From positions 1-25,170 of the IMG/VR virus record IMGVR_UViG_3300034374_001301: a DNA stretch of 25,170 bases. The stretch is one strand, 5' to 3'. Made by a program: the position numbers and the translations under genes. The DNA is from a virus. Below, one piece after another: positions 10,101 through 25,170 of this stretch (positions within the stretch are counted from its first letter, which is position 1; each line of letters starts with the position of its first letter). The notes beneath the pieces were generated by a model that was given only the letters and a program-made list of their open reading frames with translations, was not told the origin of the DNA and ran no database searches.

Positions 10101-10284
10101 TGAAGCAGAACAACAAGGACAACAAACTACTATTCCAGGTATAAATCAAATACCAACATTGCAAGCTCCAGCAGCACCTGAAGCACCACAAGTTAAACAA
10201 CAAAAATTTGAAACCTTATTTCCATTTGATGTAACTGGACAAATGATTGCTGGTCAAGGAGGCACTACTAACAATGCTATGTAA
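7171..10284 (+). CDS. giant (1037-aa) internal virion / DNA-ejection-type protein
   Basis: This is the largest gene in the window, starting MAEPTPLESLQQKLDTN 4 nt after the previous stop, with AAGGA upstream. The protein is mostly helical. A glycine-rich hydrophobic stretch, GGAVGAGLGTGAYDLV, lies near residue 190 and a longer one (LLGGVVMGGGMFAANPLAPL) near 796-815. Both could insert in a membrane. The C-terminus is Pro/Gln-rich and unstructured (about 970-1015), ending in GQGGTTNNAM. Large helical proteins with membrane-active patches directly downstream of a gp13/gp14-like pair fit ejected core proteins, analogous to T7 gp16. No lytic transglycosylase motif could be identified. It overlaps the following Cys-rich mini-gene by 11 nt. 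Confidence 0.66.
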   Translation: MAEPTPLESLQQKLDTNSLNPREYNTEQLSTIDNLIEQGVLKGPRMSDIVQNFNATAETLAEEKEFAKDPLAVALKDKSIFQGELTGLIPTRPGAELVGDLTGSLLPYIRNKDVLVNSLKLPKAAQSKLFTQKAIELSRYLEKIPKIGKAFKFTRGILMGAAKAADVATSARIKPLIATEVQSVLGGAVGAGLGTGAYDLVNRNFGKDLAIAINQDLANLKDQDVQSDTGAAMLEAAKNSLYWGAGASALLPIAGGFAKGVKSLFGLKGDKALELAQFAYDKGLPIPLLAAMKDGPLSGIGQSYFKTVGVFPFVSKIGDQALRDAELKYGKAFLSDLAGLAPITRTSALSVASMQQFKKQFETYANLISDGYTDFMRHVDDVGNPQFIKLDKAQAAAKEFMDEWSQQIPRLKAMSDYGDDAIKFADYKKMVFEELSDNNDPLVQLMGYLSYAKGDVQMTAKEFAGLQRLATRAIEKTNFFDARKSIFKIKDGFDMDFATSAAKLDKNVLLGDTVVKAEYEKALAEGGQVAADRYLNNALERVSGLNQQLKLANTKFNQFLKPYEKSAVAAAIKAGDKSLFTSKQLYGIGGKESIPMEQVFTSIEKAAFKSGNPGSIEELKHFYGYNTSKAGKEMFDRAFSRHIYDAYLKSFSEESLKTGSAFDLLKQMQTTKPKTHSMVDDVLEQGGMRDLYAARNVTVKDVLSGQADESIQITFGKGDFAEFSADKFRAALGFDGPAGQEARRMMIQAYGGGMKGAQALDNLEKFINYTKALSDVPISETSAFLQRRLTLSGGAGLLGGVVMGGGMFAANPLAPLVFLYASRKIGKVLTDPEALRRMMDVLSPAERLAFAKKEVGVKSFVGIPVTVGETKARAFARFANYMAEEDADLPKVDPSKIDPQEIIDRLSNIPMTIPKKGFNFDSLPKEERERIAPEREMEKQIPTSLLVEATGFADGFNVGENQAIQAVNVDYGIQPSPEAEQQGQQTTIPGINQIPTLQAPAAPEAPQVKQQKFETLFPFDVTGQMIAGQGGTTNNAM

Positions 10285-10429
10285 TAGTTGTGGTAATGAA
10301 GCTCATTGTGGAGAAAAACTAACTGATGAAGTTAATGGCATCAAGACAATTGAATGTAAAAAATGTACTTGTCAGGAATGCAAAGACTTTGAAAAATATA
10401 ACAAGGAAGATGAATTCAATGGAGCCTAG
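10274..10429 (+). CDS. 51-aa cysteine-rich putative zinc-binding protein
   Basis: The most likely start is the ATG at 10274, which begins MLCNSCGNEAHCGEK and lies inside the last codons of the preceding gene; a GTG-free extension to 10247 is possible but less likely. Seven cysteines (3, 6, 12, 28, 31, 33, 36) form CxxC and CxxCxCxxC clusters, suggesting one or two zinc sites of rubredoxin/zinc-ribbon type. The tail is charged (DFEKYNKEDEF). Its function is unknown. It overlaps the next gene by 11 nt, so three genes in a row are translationally linked at the end of the late block. Confidence 0.6.
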   Translation: MLCNSCGNEAHCGEKLTDEVNGIKTIECKKCTCQECKDFEKYNKEDEFNGA

Positions 10430-10622
10430 AAATACTAGAGAACATATTATAACTCTTCAAGGACACGTTACAGGTGTAAAGAGAGAACTATACCATATTA
10501 AAAAACAACAAGAACAAACACACGAACATATTGAAAAGACAGTTAAAAAGTTAGATTGGATATTAGGTCTTATTATAGCTGGACTAGCATTTTTTGCTTC
10601 TAAAGCCTTTGTTGGCTTTTAA
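10419..10622 (+). CDS. coiled-coil plus C-terminal transmembrane protein, holin-like (XhlA-type layout)
   Basis: The start chosen is ATG 10419, with AAGGAAG 8 nt upstream; the in-frame ATG at 10410 and a longer frame from 10326 are alternatives. The 67-aa protein begins MEPRNTREHIITLQGHV, runs through a charged helical or coiled-coil segment (VKRELYHIKKQQEQ), and ends with a single hydrophobic helix, WILGLIIAGLAFFASKAF, close to the C-terminus. That layout resembles XhlA-like holin accessory proteins and small lysis-cassette proteins at the end of phage late operons. No endolysin is next to it in this window, so the lysis role is an inference from topology and position. A terminator-like hairpin follows directly. 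Confidence 0.6.
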   Translation: MEPRNTREHIITLQGHVTGVKRELYHIKKQQEQTHEHIEKTVKKLDWILGLIIAGLAFFASKAFVGF

Positions 10623-10648
10623 AAAACCTCCTGAGAGGCCTCAGAATT
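10621..10648. terminator. hairpin between the late block and the replication block
   Basis: CTGAG (10631-10635) and CTCAG (10640-10644) pair around loop AGGC. CCTC/GAGG (10627-10630 with 10634-10637) is an alternative pairing. Read on the minus strand, the hairpin is followed by six T residues (opposite 10621-10626), so it looks like an intrinsic terminator for leftward transcription. On the plus strand no T run follows, so rightward termination would be weak. It sits exactly after the last late gene. Confidence 0.4.
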
Positions 10649-10691
10649 AACCGTTTGACATCTTTCCGATACTAGGGTACCCCTTGTTTTT

Positions 10692-14238: not shown

Positions 14239-15897
14239 ATGGATCTAAGTAGATTTTCAGAACTGTTCGATGGTTCTAAAAGAAAATACGGTACCTTCAA
14301 GCCTTCGGGCTTGAAGCGTGCCGACGGTAAGGTTGAGGGAGTTTACAATTGGGAATCCTTTCCTGCTGATGGCAATGAAGAGCCGATCTTTAAAGACCAT
14401 ATTGAAGGTGTACAATCCATTGGTATTGTACCAATTAGAGAAGATAACACTGTAAGCTTTGGTGTTATTGATGTAGATAAAATTAAATCAGAAGAAGAAG
14501 CTAATGAAGTATTAGACAAGATTAGATCTTGGAACTTACCTTTCGTACCATTTAGATCAAAGTCGGGAGGTGTACACGCATATTTATTTATAGATGGTTC
14601 AGCACCAGCTAACGAAGTTAAAAGAAGATTAACTGCATTATCATTAAAACTAGGAAGACCAAAAAGTACAATAGACATATTTCCTGTACAAACTAAATTA
14701 AATGCTGATGGTACAGGTAATCAAATCAACACACCTTATTTTAATTACAAAGACGAAACAACAAAACGTTGGGCAATAAGAAATTACAACATTAAAGACT
14801 TAATACCTTTAGAGGAATTTTTAACAATGAAAATTACTAAAGTTACTTTAAAGGAACTAGAATCTATTGGTATCAAAAAAGTTTCAGACTATCCGCCTTG
14901 TATGGATTATTATTTTGAGAATAAAGTTTACGAAGGTGAAAGAGATAAAGCTTTATTACAGTTTGGTTGTGTAGCTAGAAAGATGCACGGAGATAATGAA
15001 GATAAGGTTAGAGAAGAGATGGATAACTTTGTAACTAAGTTTTTTGCAACAGAAGAGGGTTTTGATAAAAATCAATTTGCTAAAAAAGTATCTCAGGTTA
15101 TGAAAAAGAGAGATAAAGCAGATCAAAAAGATGAAGAAGATGTTTGGTATGTTAGAAACAATTGTAGACAGATTGCTGACTTAGGTAGATGTGACAAGGT
15201 AGGTTGTAGAACTCGTAAGTTTGGCCTTGTTGAAAGAACTGTAATGGTTACAGATTATAGAATGCTTATGACTAATCCTAGAAGACATTTACTTACAATG
15301 GTTAATGAAAAAGGTGATGAAGTAATTATATCAATGACTACTGATCAACTATGGACACAAAATCAAATAGCTAAAAGATGTTGGGAAGAACAAATTAAAT
15401 GGACTTGGGTTGAGGCAGATGAGTTTACAGAGATGAAGGATAAATGGTTTGAAACTATGAAAGTTATTGATTCTTATAATGAAGGTGAGGAAAGATTATC
15501 TGAATTTAGTACGATACTGCACGCATTCATTGATGAGAAAAAAGGAGCTAATGATATTACACAGATTGATTATGGTTATGTTTATAAATGTGACAAGTTA
15601 AAAAGACATTTTTGGAATGCAACTTCATTTAAACACTATGCTAAATCTAAGTACAATAAATCTTATGAAACTACATTAGGAGAGATGTTAGCTAGGATGT
15701 GTGAAGAAGAAAAAATTAAATATCCTGAAAAGAAAGATGCAAGTAAAAGAATTATTCAACTACATAAAGGATATCAAGGATATAGCAAACGATGTTACTC
15801 CTCTATTATTTTAGATGACATAAAAGGTAGAGATAATACAAAAGAGATAAATAAATTTAAACAACAAATAGGTGATAATGAATTTAGTACAAACTAA
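14239..15897 (+). CDS. AEP-superfamily DNA primase with a C-terminal four-cysteine domain
   Basis: This 552-aa protein should synthesise primers for replication. The N-terminal archaeo-eukaryotic primase catalytic domain has VIDVD (Asp78, Asp80; metal-binding motif I), RSKSGGVHAYLF (His113; motif II) and TIDIFPVQ (Asp146; motif III). A second region has Cys221 (in YPPC), Cys309, Cys318 and Cys323, spaced C-x8-C-x4-C at the end. This recalls the PriL-type iron-sulphur or zinc domain. The final ~200 residues are mixed helical with no Walker motif, so there is no fused helicase. No Shine-Dalgarno sequence precedes the ATG, which lies 3 nt after the ssDNA-binding gene's stop. The helicase gene that follows begins 20 nt before its stop. 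Confidence 0.8.
   Translation: MDLSRFSELFDGSKRKYGTFKPSGLKRADGKVEGVYNWESFPADGNEEPIFKDHIEGVQSIGIVPIREDNTVSFGVIDVDKIKSEEEANEVLDKIRSWNLPFVPFRSKSGGVHAYLFIDGSAPANEVKRRLTALSLKLGRPKSTIDIFPVQTKLNADGTGNQINTPYFNYKDETTKRWAIRNYNIKDLIPLEEFLTMKITKVTLKELESIGIKKVSDYPPCMDYYFENKVYEGERDKALLQFGCVARKMHGDNEDKVREEMDNFVTKFFATEEGFDKNQFAKKVSQVMKKRDKADQKDEEDVWYVRNNCRQIADLGRCDKVGCRTRKFGLVERTVMVTDYRMLMTNPRRHLLTMVNEKGDEVIISMTTDQLWTQNQIAKRCWEEQIKWTWVEADEFTEMKDKWFETMKVIDSYNEGEERLSEFSTILHAFIDEKKGANDITQIDYGYVYKCDKLKRHFWNATSFKHYAKSKYNKSYETTLGEMLARMCEEEKIKYPEKKDASKRIIQLHKGYQGYSKRCYSSIILDDIKGRDNTKEINKFKQQIGDNEFSTN
14295..14316 (+). promoter_or_regulatory. perfect 9-bp RNA hairpin with UUCG tetraloop inside the primase gene
   Basis: CTTCAAGCC (14295-14303) and GGCTTGAAG (14308-14316) are exactly complementary around TTCG, giving a C(UUCG)G-capped stem, an exceptionally stable RNA fold. 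It lies 57 nt inside the coding region (codons 19-26), in a locally GC-rich patch, with no T run after it. It could affect ribosome progress, RNA processing or stability; none of these is demonstrated. Confidence 0.6.
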
Positions 15898-23269: not shown

Positions 23270-23504
23270 TCTCACAAGATTGAATTCTTGCATCCCATTG
23301 AATTATCATAGAAGAATGGACAGCTATGATATTTTAATCGAGGACTCATTACAAAGTAAAAAAAGGGTTGAGCCAGAACTACAAAACGAGTTTTTTGAAA
23401 AAGCTTGGGTATGTTTTGATGTATGTATGGCCAAACAAAATTTGGAGGATGCAAAATATTATCGTGAGTTACTCAGTAGAATTACTAAAACTTATGGGCA
23501 CTAA
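23253..23504 (+). CDS. hypothetical protein
   Basis: This frame encodes 83 aa from ATG 23253, or 62 aa from an in-frame ATG at 23316 (MDSYDILIEDSLQSKK), which is the more family-like beginning. The start is undecided because neither has a strong ribosome site. The C-terminal half is helical (NEFFEKAWVCFDVCMAKQ, DAKYYRELLSRITK). It overlaps the next gene by 11 nt. Its function is unknown. Confidence 0.55.
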   Translation: MKIKNSLTRLNSCIPLNYHRRMDSYDILIEDSLQSKKRVEPELQNEFFEKAWVCFDVCMAKQNLEDAKYYRELLSRITKTYGH

Positions 23505-23910
23505 GCTAGCGACGCAAATCGTAACGGAAGCTCATTCAACACCTAGCGAAACAAAGCTATGGCAGGCCGTAGTTATGATGGCCTTTGAGGATTGTGTTTG
23601 TAATCTAAACGATAAAAAATCTTCTATTGCAAAATGGGACGCATTTAAATGGTTTCATCAAAAAGATGATTTTGAAAATGTTTGCTATCTTGCAGAATTT
23701 GAACCTGAATACGTTTTAGAAAGATTTCATTTAGCTATTGATAATGAAGTTATTAAATTTAATCAAAGACAAATTGCTTGGGCTAAATATCACGAAGCTT
23801 TAAAAGCTTATCAAGAAGAAACGGAAGATAAGAAAAAAAGAAAAGAACTTAGAATGGAATTAGAAAAACAAAGAAAGAATTTGGCTTTTTCAACACTAAA
23901 ATATGATTAG
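23494..23910 (+). CDS. conserved phage protein of unknown function
   Basis: The start is placed at MGTKLATQIVTEAHSTP (23494), overlapping the previous stop; the open frame continues upstream without a better start. The 138-aa protein contains KLWQAVVMMAFEDCVCN, KWDAFKWFHQKDDFENVCYL and AEFEPEYVLERFHLAI. I recognise this order (W-Q-A-V, D-A-x-x-W, FEPEYV) from small proteins of marine phages with no known role. The C-terminus is a long charged helix (EETEDKKKRKELRMELEKQ). It is possibly a DNA- or RNA-associated helical protein. Confidence 0.65.
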   Translation: MGTKLATQIVTEAHSTPSETKLWQAVVMMAFEDCVCNLNDKKSSIAKWDAFKWFHQKDDFENVCYLAEFEPEYVLERFHLAIDNEVIKFNQRQIAWAKYHEALKAYQEETEDKKKRKELRMELEKQRKNLAFSTLKYD

Positions 23911-24073: not shown

Positions 24074-24161
24074 AATTGAAGAAGATTTAAATCTTGTCAG
24101 AGAGAAAGCTGATGAGATGGATGAGGTTGCTGATATTGACGAAGATGAGGATGAGGAGTAA
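24027..24161 (+). CDS. 44-aa protein with basic head and acidic tail
   Basis: AAGGAG 6 nt before ATG 24027 is a very good ribosome site. The protein starts MPKKKKNETIQDILDRIEED, continues as an amphipathic helix, and ends with an acidic run after EVADIDEDEDEE. The bipolar charge resembles small DNA-mimic or histone-chaperone-like phage proteins, or a partner-binding tail. This is the last gene of the accessory operon; terminators follow. No family is recognised. Confidence 0.62.
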   Translation: MPKKKKNETIQDILDRIEEDLNLVREKADEMDEVADIDEDEDEE

Positions 24162-24172
24162 TATATAATTAA

Positions 24173-24206
24173 TCTAATGTTTCTATATCATTAGACCTTT
24201 CTTTTT
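24173..24206 (+). terminator. weak hairpin after the accessory operon
   Basis: TCTAATG (24173-24179) pairs with CATTAGA (24189-24195) around a 9-nt loop, followed by the T-rich stretch to 24206. The AT-rich stem makes it a weak first element of a tandem terminator. Confidence 0.4.
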
Positions 24207-24220
24207 GTTTAAGTTGTTAT

Positions 24221-24260
24221 GAGCCCCTGAGCTATCATAGTTTGGGGGCTCTTTTATTTT
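24221..24260 (+). terminator. strong intrinsic terminator of the accessory operon
   Basis: GAGCCCC (24221-24227) pairs with GGGGCTC (24245-24251). The loop contains a further small palindrome (CTATCATAG). TTTTATTTT follows at 24252-24260. This is a textbook Rho-independent terminator for rightward transcription ending the operon from 20996. Confidence 0.85.
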
Positions 24261-24262
24261 AT

Positions 24263-24290
24263 GGGGAACAATGGGAGACTGGCGTTCCCC
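24263..24290. repeat. 7-bp inverted repeat in the non-coding block
   Basis: GGGGAAC (24263-24269) and GTTCCCC (24284-24290) are perfectly complementary with a 14-nt loop. This is the first of a series of GC-rich inverted repeats that set the region apart from its AT-rich surroundings. Confidence 0.55.
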
Positions 24291-24315
24291 TTACCAAAGA
24301 CAGCCAAAGACATCT

Positions 24316-24355
24316 CTGGGACAGCCAAAGACAAAACCTTTGTCCCAGCTTTTTT
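24316..24355 (+). terminator. hairpin A of the mirrored pair, terminator-like
   Basis: CTGGGACA (24316-24323), 17 nt, TGTCCCAG (24341-24348), then CTTTTTT to 24355. The 8-bp stem and T run make a plausible rightward intrinsic terminator backing up the one at 24221. It also carries a heptamer repeat in its loop. Confidence 0.55.
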
Positions 24356-24516
24356 ATCGTAAACCATTGAATTTATTAGGTATTTTTTTAAAAAACCTTT
24401 CAAAGACACAAAGACATATAAATTACCCTTTTTAAATGATGAAAAAAAAATTTGGGGCTGTCTTTGCGTCCCAGAGGCCATTTTTGGCTTAAAACCATTG
24501 GTATTATTGAATAATC

Positions 24517-24549
24517 CTGGGACAGCGTGTCTGTCTTTGCGTGTCCCAG
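24517..24549. repeat. hairpin B of the mirrored pair
   Basis: CTGGGACA (24517-24524), 17 nt, TGTCCCAG (24542-24549): the same arms and the same loop length as hairpin A, with the AAAGACA heptamer in its loop on the opposite strand, so B is an inverted copy of A about 200 bp away. No T run follows. Confidence 0.65.
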
Positions 24550-24562
24550 CGTGTCCGTGCGT

Positions 24563-24590
24563 TTGTCGCACCCCCCTTGGTACATATAAT
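24563..24590 (+). promoter_or_regulatory. putative promoter toward the terminase genes
   Basis: TTGTCG (24563-24568, 4 of 6), 16-bp spacer, TATAAT (24585-24590, perfect). Transcription would start near 24597 and run through the AT-rich repeat and the direct repeats into the gene at 24808, giving a long untranslated leader of about 210 nt. Confidence 0.45.
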
Positions 24591-24630
24591 CGTTTAAGTT
24601 TAAGTTATGCTAAGTGTATGGGGTATATAT

Positions 24631-24658
24631 AATAAATAATAAATAATAAATAATAAAT
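24631..24658. repeat. four tandem AATAAAT heptamers in an AT-only tract
   Basis: AATAAAT repeats exactly four times without gaps, flanked by TATATAT (24624-24630) and by TTTATATATA on the other side (about 24657-24666). The whole tract lacks G or C for more than 40 bp. Tandem AT-rich repeats next to oriented heptamers resemble a DNA-unwinding element. Confidence 0.7.
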
Positions 24659-24685
24659 TTATATATACAAATTAGGAATAATAGC

Positions 24686-24767
24686 GGACAACGGACAAGG
24701 AACCTGTAATGCTATCTCATCCTCCCGAGTACAAGCTCATCTTCCCGAGTACACGGGACAACGGACA
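24686..24767. repeat. GGACAACGGACA boxes enclosing two 20-bp tandem repeats
   Basis: The 12-mer GGACAACGGACA occurs at 24686-24697 and again at 24756-24767. Between them an 18-bp unit, CTCATCyTCCCGAGTACA, occurs twice in tandem with a 20-bp period (24716-24733 and 24736-24753), differing at one position. CCCG (24744-24747) and CGGG (24754-24757) form a further short inverted repeat. The structure lies about 175 bp before terS and is a candidate terminase recognition (cos/pac) site or operator. Confidence 0.65.
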
Positions 24768-24794
24768 GGTGTAGATTTAGGCAAGGTCTTGGTT

Positions 24795-24800
24795 TATAGT
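24795..24800 (+). promoter_or_regulatory. -10-like box 7 nt before the 24808 gene
   Basis: TATAGT (5 of 6) ends 7 nt before the ATG at 24808, with no good -35 at 16-18 bp and no Shine-Dalgarno sequence. Spacing fits the leaderless pattern seen elsewhere in this genome. Confidence 0.3.
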
Positions 24801-24807
24801 AGTTGCT

Positions 24808-24957
24808 ATGAAAAAGCGGCACGAGCAATACATCAATTTGTTAATTAAGATAGCGGATTGGGTTAAAGACAAGGCTTGGAACAAACTGCATAAGACTTCA
24901 CATAAAGATTGGTTAAAAGGATACAAGAAATGGAAAGACAATGCCAAAATTACCTAA
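24808..24957 (+). CDS. 49-aa basic protein before terS
   Basis: ATG 24808 opens a 49-aa frame starting MKKRHEQYINLLIKIADWVK and ending KKWKDNAKIT. It is lysine- and tryptophan-rich with an amphipathic helix, and it overlaps the terminase small-subunit gene by 17 nt, so the two should be co-translated. No domain is recognised; a DNA-binding or packaging accessory role is suggested only by charge and position. No Shine-Dalgarno sequence is present. Confidence 0.55.
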   Translation: MKKRHEQYINLLIKIADWVKDKAWNKLHKTSHKDWLKGYKKWKDNAKIT

Positions 24958-25170
24958 TGTTTTAAAAACAACAGACCAGTTGACTGCAAAGCAACGTAAG
25001 TTTGTTGATATCTATGTTTCAAATTATGGAAAGATAAATAAAGCAGATGCGGTAAGAGAAGCTGGTTATAATCCCAAAAGAGTGAATGGTGCGTCAGAGA
25101 TTGGTAGCAGACTTACTAACCCAAACCTAAACCCACACGTAGTTAGATACTTAGAAAAGAAATTAAATGC
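24941..25170 (+). CDS. terS: terminase small subunit (partial, runs off the right edge)
   Basis: The first 76 residues are visible. MPKLPNVLKTTDQLTAKQRK begins the Terminase_2-type N-terminus, followed by FVDIYVSNYGKINKADAVRE and AGYNPKRVNG. LTAKQRKFVDIY and the KADAVREAGY helix-turn-helix (about 33-43) are the recognised DNA-binding signature of small terminase subunits, which recognise the packaging site. SRLTNPNLNPHVVRYLEKKL continues the expected pattern. The gene marks the beginning of the packaging and head module that should continue right of the window, and it makes the repeats just upstream attractive packaging-site candidates. Confidence 0.88.
   Translation, partial: MPKLPNVLKTTDQLTAKQRKFVDIYVSNYGKINKADAVREAGYNPKRVNGASEIGSRLTNPNLNPHVVRYLEKKLN

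Follow-up and report, generated by a model that had tools for sequence, protein, structure and literature searches.

A turnover-prone word array upstream of terS as a putative packaging-initiation site in HTVC023P-like phages

What kind of element occupies the non-coding DNA between the replication operon and the small terminase gene (terS) of HTVC023P-like phages, an abundant marine group, and which protein reads it? The question is raised here by a viral DNA stretch of 25,170 bases (hereafter, the window), which judging by its encoded proteins is a contig of such a phage: its DNA polymerase shares 56% identity with the enzyme of Pelagibacter phage HTVC023P, and its small terminase (TerS) has its sole match in the phage collection in the same phage (58%; gp21). 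A gap at 24160-24940 parts the replication operon, lying upstream, from terS (24941-25168, plus strand; Terminase_2/phrog_51), which is cut by the contig end. The upstream operon is closed by a strong intrinsic terminator at 24221-24251 (plus strand; 14-bp stem and T tract, z -5.1). The gap is non-coding except for a 49-aa ORF (24808-24957), whose end overlaps the start of terS and which is missing in the relatives L083 and L084, where terS begins at that place; a TATAGT a few bases 5' of its ATG suggests a near-leaderless transcript. Other features of the gap are a 20-bp tandem repeat, CTCATCYTCCCGAGTACA(AG), at 24716-24753, and strings of ACGG-type words at 24686-24697 and 24756-24767, of a kind (GGACAACGGACA; ACACGGAACACGG; CACGGCTCACGG) that is met again upstream of terS in L101, L098, L161 and L110. 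A DNA-level search of isolated phages gave no match, and a site of the kind analyzed below is not described for these phages in the open-access literature searched, an absence which is no proof of novelty.

A preliminary description of the gap had reported two mirrored hairpins with identical arms and identical loops. The arms, CTGGGACA...TGTCCCAG, do occur twice (24316-24323/24341-24348 and 24517-24524/24542-24549), separated by 17 nt both times, and the 168 bp between the two units (24349-24516) contain further word copies, as had been stated. The loops are identical in length and not in sequence (GCCAAAGACAAAACCTT vs. CGCAAAGACAGACACGC, the second copy reverse-complemented, with 10 of 17 bases equal); the AAAGACA reported for both is indeed present from the fourth base past the arm, once one copy is reverse-complemented. 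The hairpins are pieces of a word array, not the unit itself. The array extends over about 24295-24559, beyond the 24316-24549 originally delimited, and comprises some 13 eight-base words, namely seven copies of CAAAGACA, four of CTGGGACA and two degenerate copies. Read directly from the sequence, the plus strand carries CAAAGACA at 24295-24302 and 24305-24312, CTGGGACA at 24316-24323 (left arm of the first hairpin) and CAAAGACA again at 24326-24333, within the first loop; CTGGGACA on the minus strand (24341-24348, i.e., TGTCCCAG) completes this hairpin and is followed by CTTTTTT. A tandem pair, CAAAGACA CAAAGACA, with 8-bp spacing lies at 24401-24416 (plus strand), where L083 has CTAGGACGCTAGGACA, and 58 bp past it there is another tandem pair, TGTCTTTG CGTCCCAG (24459-24474, minus strand). 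Between the word groups sits an AT-rich core, AAACCATTGGTATTATTGAATAATC (24492-24516), kept within the window's clade. The second hairpin consists of CTGGGACA as left arm (24517-24524, plus strand), CAAAGACA within the loop (24532-24539, minus strand) and CTGGGACA as right arm (24542-24549, minus strand), and a degenerate word, TGTCCGTG (24552-24559, minus strand), aligns with TGTCCCAG/CGTCCTAG in L084/L083.

Chance was assessed with 2000 shuffles of 24165-24940 that kept the dinucleotide composition. Of these, 167 contained an 8-bp arm pair (GC >= 4) and none the same arm pair twice (0/2000); no shuffle held an 8-mer seven times, the maximum being four copies against the seven of CAAAGACA observed. 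Furthermore, CTGGGACA has no copy outside the array in the 25,170-base window. The hairpins are most simply taken as a by-product of oppositely oriented words.

Arrays of the same kind lie upstream of terS in the relatives, and their words are lineage-specific: CTRGGACR (CTRGGACA) in L083/L084, CWAAGACA in L013, CTAGGAGT in clade B (e.g., L106), CTAGGAAA and variants in clade C (including HTVC023P), CTRGGAAA in clade D, CTGACAnnnGTGACA in clade E, TGGTGTATC in clade F (e.g., L143), CTAGTTTT in L077, CTAAGAAA in L267/L268, and CGCTGAA in L179 and L182. Between the window and L084 the word differs and the positions coincide, with spacings of 60, 50 and 50 bp in both; CAAAGACACAAAGACA of the window is aligned to CTAGGACGCTAGGACA of L083. 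Carrying two word types, the window looks like a phage in mid-switch. As a separate observation, in L267/L268 every array word, about 210 to 110 bases before terS, has become CTAAGAAA with the core TCAACACTTCTAGAGCA and the spacing kept, and the TerS of these phages is about 90% identical to that of relatives bearing CTAGGAAA.

The words are largely confined to their arrays. Copies near terS account for 12 of the 12 present in the 48.8-kb record of L084, 6 of 6 in the 60.9 kb of L106, 6/7 and 5/6 in further genomes, and 5/10 in HTVC023P, the count for L126 being uninformative on account of a loose search pattern. In IMG/VR, all 36 contigs matching the clade B array pattern CTAGGART (36/36) carry the array 100-250 bp before terS. 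These matches were HTVC023P-type phage contigs with terS only, and a satellite reading (an array without phage genes) was discarded; the extra matches of a weaker TGACA pattern are apparently due to chance, the two inspected falling in coding sequence. Clade E also shows a second word cluster (AACGGGA, AACGAGA, ACGAGGA), which lies 1.3-1.8 kb past the start of terS (L087:9311-9583, L090:9373-9652, L124:9398-9669 and L131:9669-9793). No recognizable array was found in HTVC027P, whose TerS is distant (30%), nor in the upstream regions of CRP-901 and CRP-810; CRP-901 has a related TerL and a different replication module.

Geometry, measured over 37 loci, is more stable than the words. Clades B, C, E and F open with a plus-orientation tandem pair spaced by 8, 8, 9 and 9 bp, respectively; the distance from first to third word is 51-52 bp in B and in C, and 62 bp in E and in F, the difference between 62 and 51.5 bp being about one helical turn, and words past the third reach 82-103 bp. 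The third word is on the minus strand in B and E and on the plus strand in C and F. The layout is constant to about 1 bp in these four clades, although words and third-word orientation differ; in the window's clade, successive word groups are 58-60 bp apart instead. AT-rich DNA sits between left and right words, and a core motif, GTTGATATACAACACTTCTAGA, is common to members of clades C, E and F (17-21 of 22 bases; L223, L251, L096, L143), being unrecognizable in the window. An inverted repeat flanks the array in several clades, though not in the window's, and its individual scores exceed the shuffled maxima only partly. In L106 this imperfect repeat lies at about -240..-193 and -61..-9 from terS, with similar ones in L032, L094, L161, L087 and L124; its sequence is clade-specific, and its right copy falls at the putative terS promoter (e.g., TTCTAAGGAAGAGGTATAT). 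From the array to the first ATG there are 70-175 bp in most clades (about 70 to 250 bp overall), and in clade F the array lies 0.8-1.2 kb from terS, staying with the start of the operon.

With words that turn over in concert at spacings constant almost to the base, the array is better understood as a protein landing site than as a folded RNA. On comparative sequence grounds we regard it as a real, conserved recognition site, at which protein binding is predicted. The preliminary description had proposed a protein-binding structure next to terS, such as a packaging site or an origin, or else a structured RNA; the first part is sustained by the lineage-specific, largely array-confined words and their base-exact geometry, and the second is not. 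A structured RNA or hairpin element, including an intrinsic terminator, does draw on folding: on either strand the predicted fold of 24280-24580 is much more stable than in shuffles (z -5.1 and -6.1), double changes are seen at 15 of 44 predicted pairs within the window's clade, and the first hairpin (24316-24348) precedes a T tract, its L083 form being a textbook terminator with a tight hairpin, GCTGGGACAGACCCCCTGTCCCAGC-TTTTTT. However, DNA words arranged as a quasi-palindrome will by themselves fold well on either strand, and the double changes are what concerted word turnover would also give. Compensatory pairs reported by RNAalifold amount to 0/8 in clade E and 1/14 in clade B, loop lengths differ in relatives (6-7 nt in L084) and, like the hairpins, are not conserved between clades, the hairpin layout is missing in clades E and F, and words without a local pairing partner (e.g., the tandem pair at 24401-24416) change like paired ones. 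An Rfam search gave best matches far below gathering scores. Since loops and hairpins are not conserved and the words change whether or not they can pair, a structured RNA is very improbable as the main identity of the element, with the first hairpin perhaps doubling as an intrinsic terminator.

Which protein, then, would land there? The reading that we favor, while giving it somewhat less than an even chance, is a multi-site pac-like packaging-initiation site, whose reader would be a TerS with a DNA-binding domain of the SF6/SPP1 type. TerS of the window scores 31.3 bits against Pfam Terminase_2 (cut-off 26.1), and the model of a close homologue (L084 TerS) superimposes on the DNA-binding domain of SF6 G1P (2cmp) with a Z of 7.6, 1.7 Å over 56 residues and 34% identity; the mean pLDDT of this model is 74, higher in the DNA-binding domain, and a Z under 8 is modest alone, sequence identity and Pfam agreeing with it. 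The position in a non-coding gap before terS is comparable to that of the pac of SPP1 (PMC6316719, PMC4737164). SPP1 and SF6 TerS are exchangeable despite their differing pac repeats (PMC4737164), and words here likewise differ between phages with near-identical TerS DNA-binding domains. Mechanistically, an oligomeric DNA-binding protein, most likely TerS, would grip the words and wrap or bend the core, the site acting like the SPP1/SF6 pac region (pacL - pacC - pacR); TerS would thereby mark the concatemer, TerL would make its first cut nearby, and headful packaging would follow, with terS possibly being repressed by its own product. Regarding genome ends, 81 HTVC023P-type genomes were circularized through terminal overlaps (PMC9599517), and the 60,868-base G002 contig (L106), probably a complete, circularly assembled genome, shows a 93-bp direct terminal overlap with its ends 19 kb from the array; circular assemblies and this overlap are consistent with permuted ends and headful packaging.

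Several results bear less kindly on the pac reading. Contig ends show no pile-up at a single base that could mark a cut site or physical end; in some groups they are more frequent around the array, but the same holds for a group that has no array at that place, so that this density is not diagnostic. Coevolution of TerS and words was not supported, as the recognition helix of TerS has no clear change to go with a word switch: examples are L268 (CTAAGAAA vs. its CTAGGAAA relatives) and L182 (CGCTGAA vs. CTGGGAA in L180/L181). Residues of TerS or gpU (see below) were considered as the cause of the switches and dismissed, the few candidates (TerS E31Q and K39E in L268) being inconsistent across independent switches. 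The distance of the array from terS in clade F and the lack of an array in HTVC027P also count against this reading. DNA binding by purified TerS proteins of the pac type is mostly weak and shows no sequence preference (PMC9611059), in contrast to which words this exact suggest a specific reader.

A second candidate reader is gpU, a conserved helical protein of about 150 aa with an HTH-like segment, encoded where the replication operon of HTVC023P-type phages ends (23464-23907, plus strand, in the window; annotated CDS 10226-10666 in HTVC023P) and with homologues in more than 100 loci; an operator or an origin bound by this neighbour is the chief alternative to the pac reading. If gpU, or another phage regulator, bound the words, the array would be an operator switching transcription from replication to packaging and structural genes, which we consider rather unlikely, yet worth weighing. 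gpU occurs in all array-bearing clades, its gene often lying immediately upstream; CRP-901 and the examined parts of DSL-LC04 and 023Pt yielded no gpU, HTVC027P has a truncated one, and in none of these four is an array recognizable before terS. The nearness of the array, in most clades, to the operon's first ATG, its staying with the operon rather than with terS in clade F, and the flanking inverted repeats that reach the promoter region in some clades point in the same direction. Nevertheless, the TerS subfamily fits the same pattern of presence and absence, the varying distance to the first ATG does not track the promoter, clade D has its gpU gene at a distance of 5-7 kb, and gpU is near-identical in L028 and L179 though their words differ in part, so gpU does not track the words. 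Its model is confident and helical (pLDDT 95), but comparison of gpU with Pfam, NCBIfam, PDB and viral structure libraries returned no informative match, structural or by family, that gives a function; a weak "transcriptional regulator" PHROG match of one member was not reproduced in ten members rescanned. Independently of this, Phage DSL-LC04 (L164) carries a non-coding GGTGCGGTTAGG-like array at 15575-15798, ahead of an annotated HTH-regulator gene and not before terS.

The location at the end of the replication operon, with repeated words on both sides of an AT-rich core, would also suit a replication origin, in which an initiator binds iteron-like words and the core melts, and the core motif GTTGATATACAACACTTCTAGA is found, for instance, in L223/L251 as well as in L143, whose words are quite different. 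However, no initiator gene was recognized, and the GC-skew inflection that the preliminary description had suggested looking for is lacking at the array in six genomes, among which no extreme of cumulative GC or AT skew recurs there; an AT-skew minimum at the array of HTVC023P was not reproduced in the five others. An origin is an unlikely identity for the array, yet like the operator it stays in contention. Packaging, operator and origin functions are not mutually exclusive, given that SPP1 TerS, according to the title of a paper cited in PMC6316719, is reported to be a repressor of its own synthesis.

Known systems help to place the putative packaging site. The iteron origins of lambda and of plasmids share with the array tandem short words next to AT-rich DNA; unlike them, it has words in both orientations and adjoins a packaging operon. 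In P1, pac has groups of short words to either side of the central region where cleavage takes place. The array resembles it in that short words flank a central region, but P1 pac lies inside the terminase gene and its words are hexamers whose Dam methylation matters, whereas the present array occupies the non-coding gap before terS. In lambda-type cos regions (cosN and the R-sites of cosB), several words for the small terminase surround a core that precedes the gene of this protein. The array has a similar layout; in contrast, no fixed genome ends are seen at it, contigs cross it, near-complete contigs end elsewhere and the published genomes circularize by overlap. The closest resemblance is to the pac of SPP1/SF6, situated at the start of terS and overlapping its promoter region (at or just upstream of terS in our case), with several repeat sets on both sides of a central region, a Terminase_2 TerS with a similar DNA-binding-domain model, and repeats that are not the same in related phages whose TerS proteins are alike (PMC4737164, PMC6316719). 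Unlike in SPP1/SF6, the words here are more numerous, in both orientations, short, largely array-confined and spaced base-exactly, and the site stops short of terS.

Taken further, the array may belong to a fast-evolving recognition system, in which all word copies change at once and outpace the DNA-binding domains of the candidate readers, with spacing and helical phase kept, and whose reader may be an undescribed HTH-like family (gpU) instead of a terminase or initiator of a known class; we hold this to be doubtful, if conceivable. How terminases tell phage from host DNA is an open problem (PMC9611059). For these phages, the array provides an exact, testable address for DNA marking or for a late-gene switch, and its concerted words at fixed spacing, changing even between phages with near-identical TerS DNA-binding domains, constitute a natural variant series on the discrimination of phage from host DNA by terminases.
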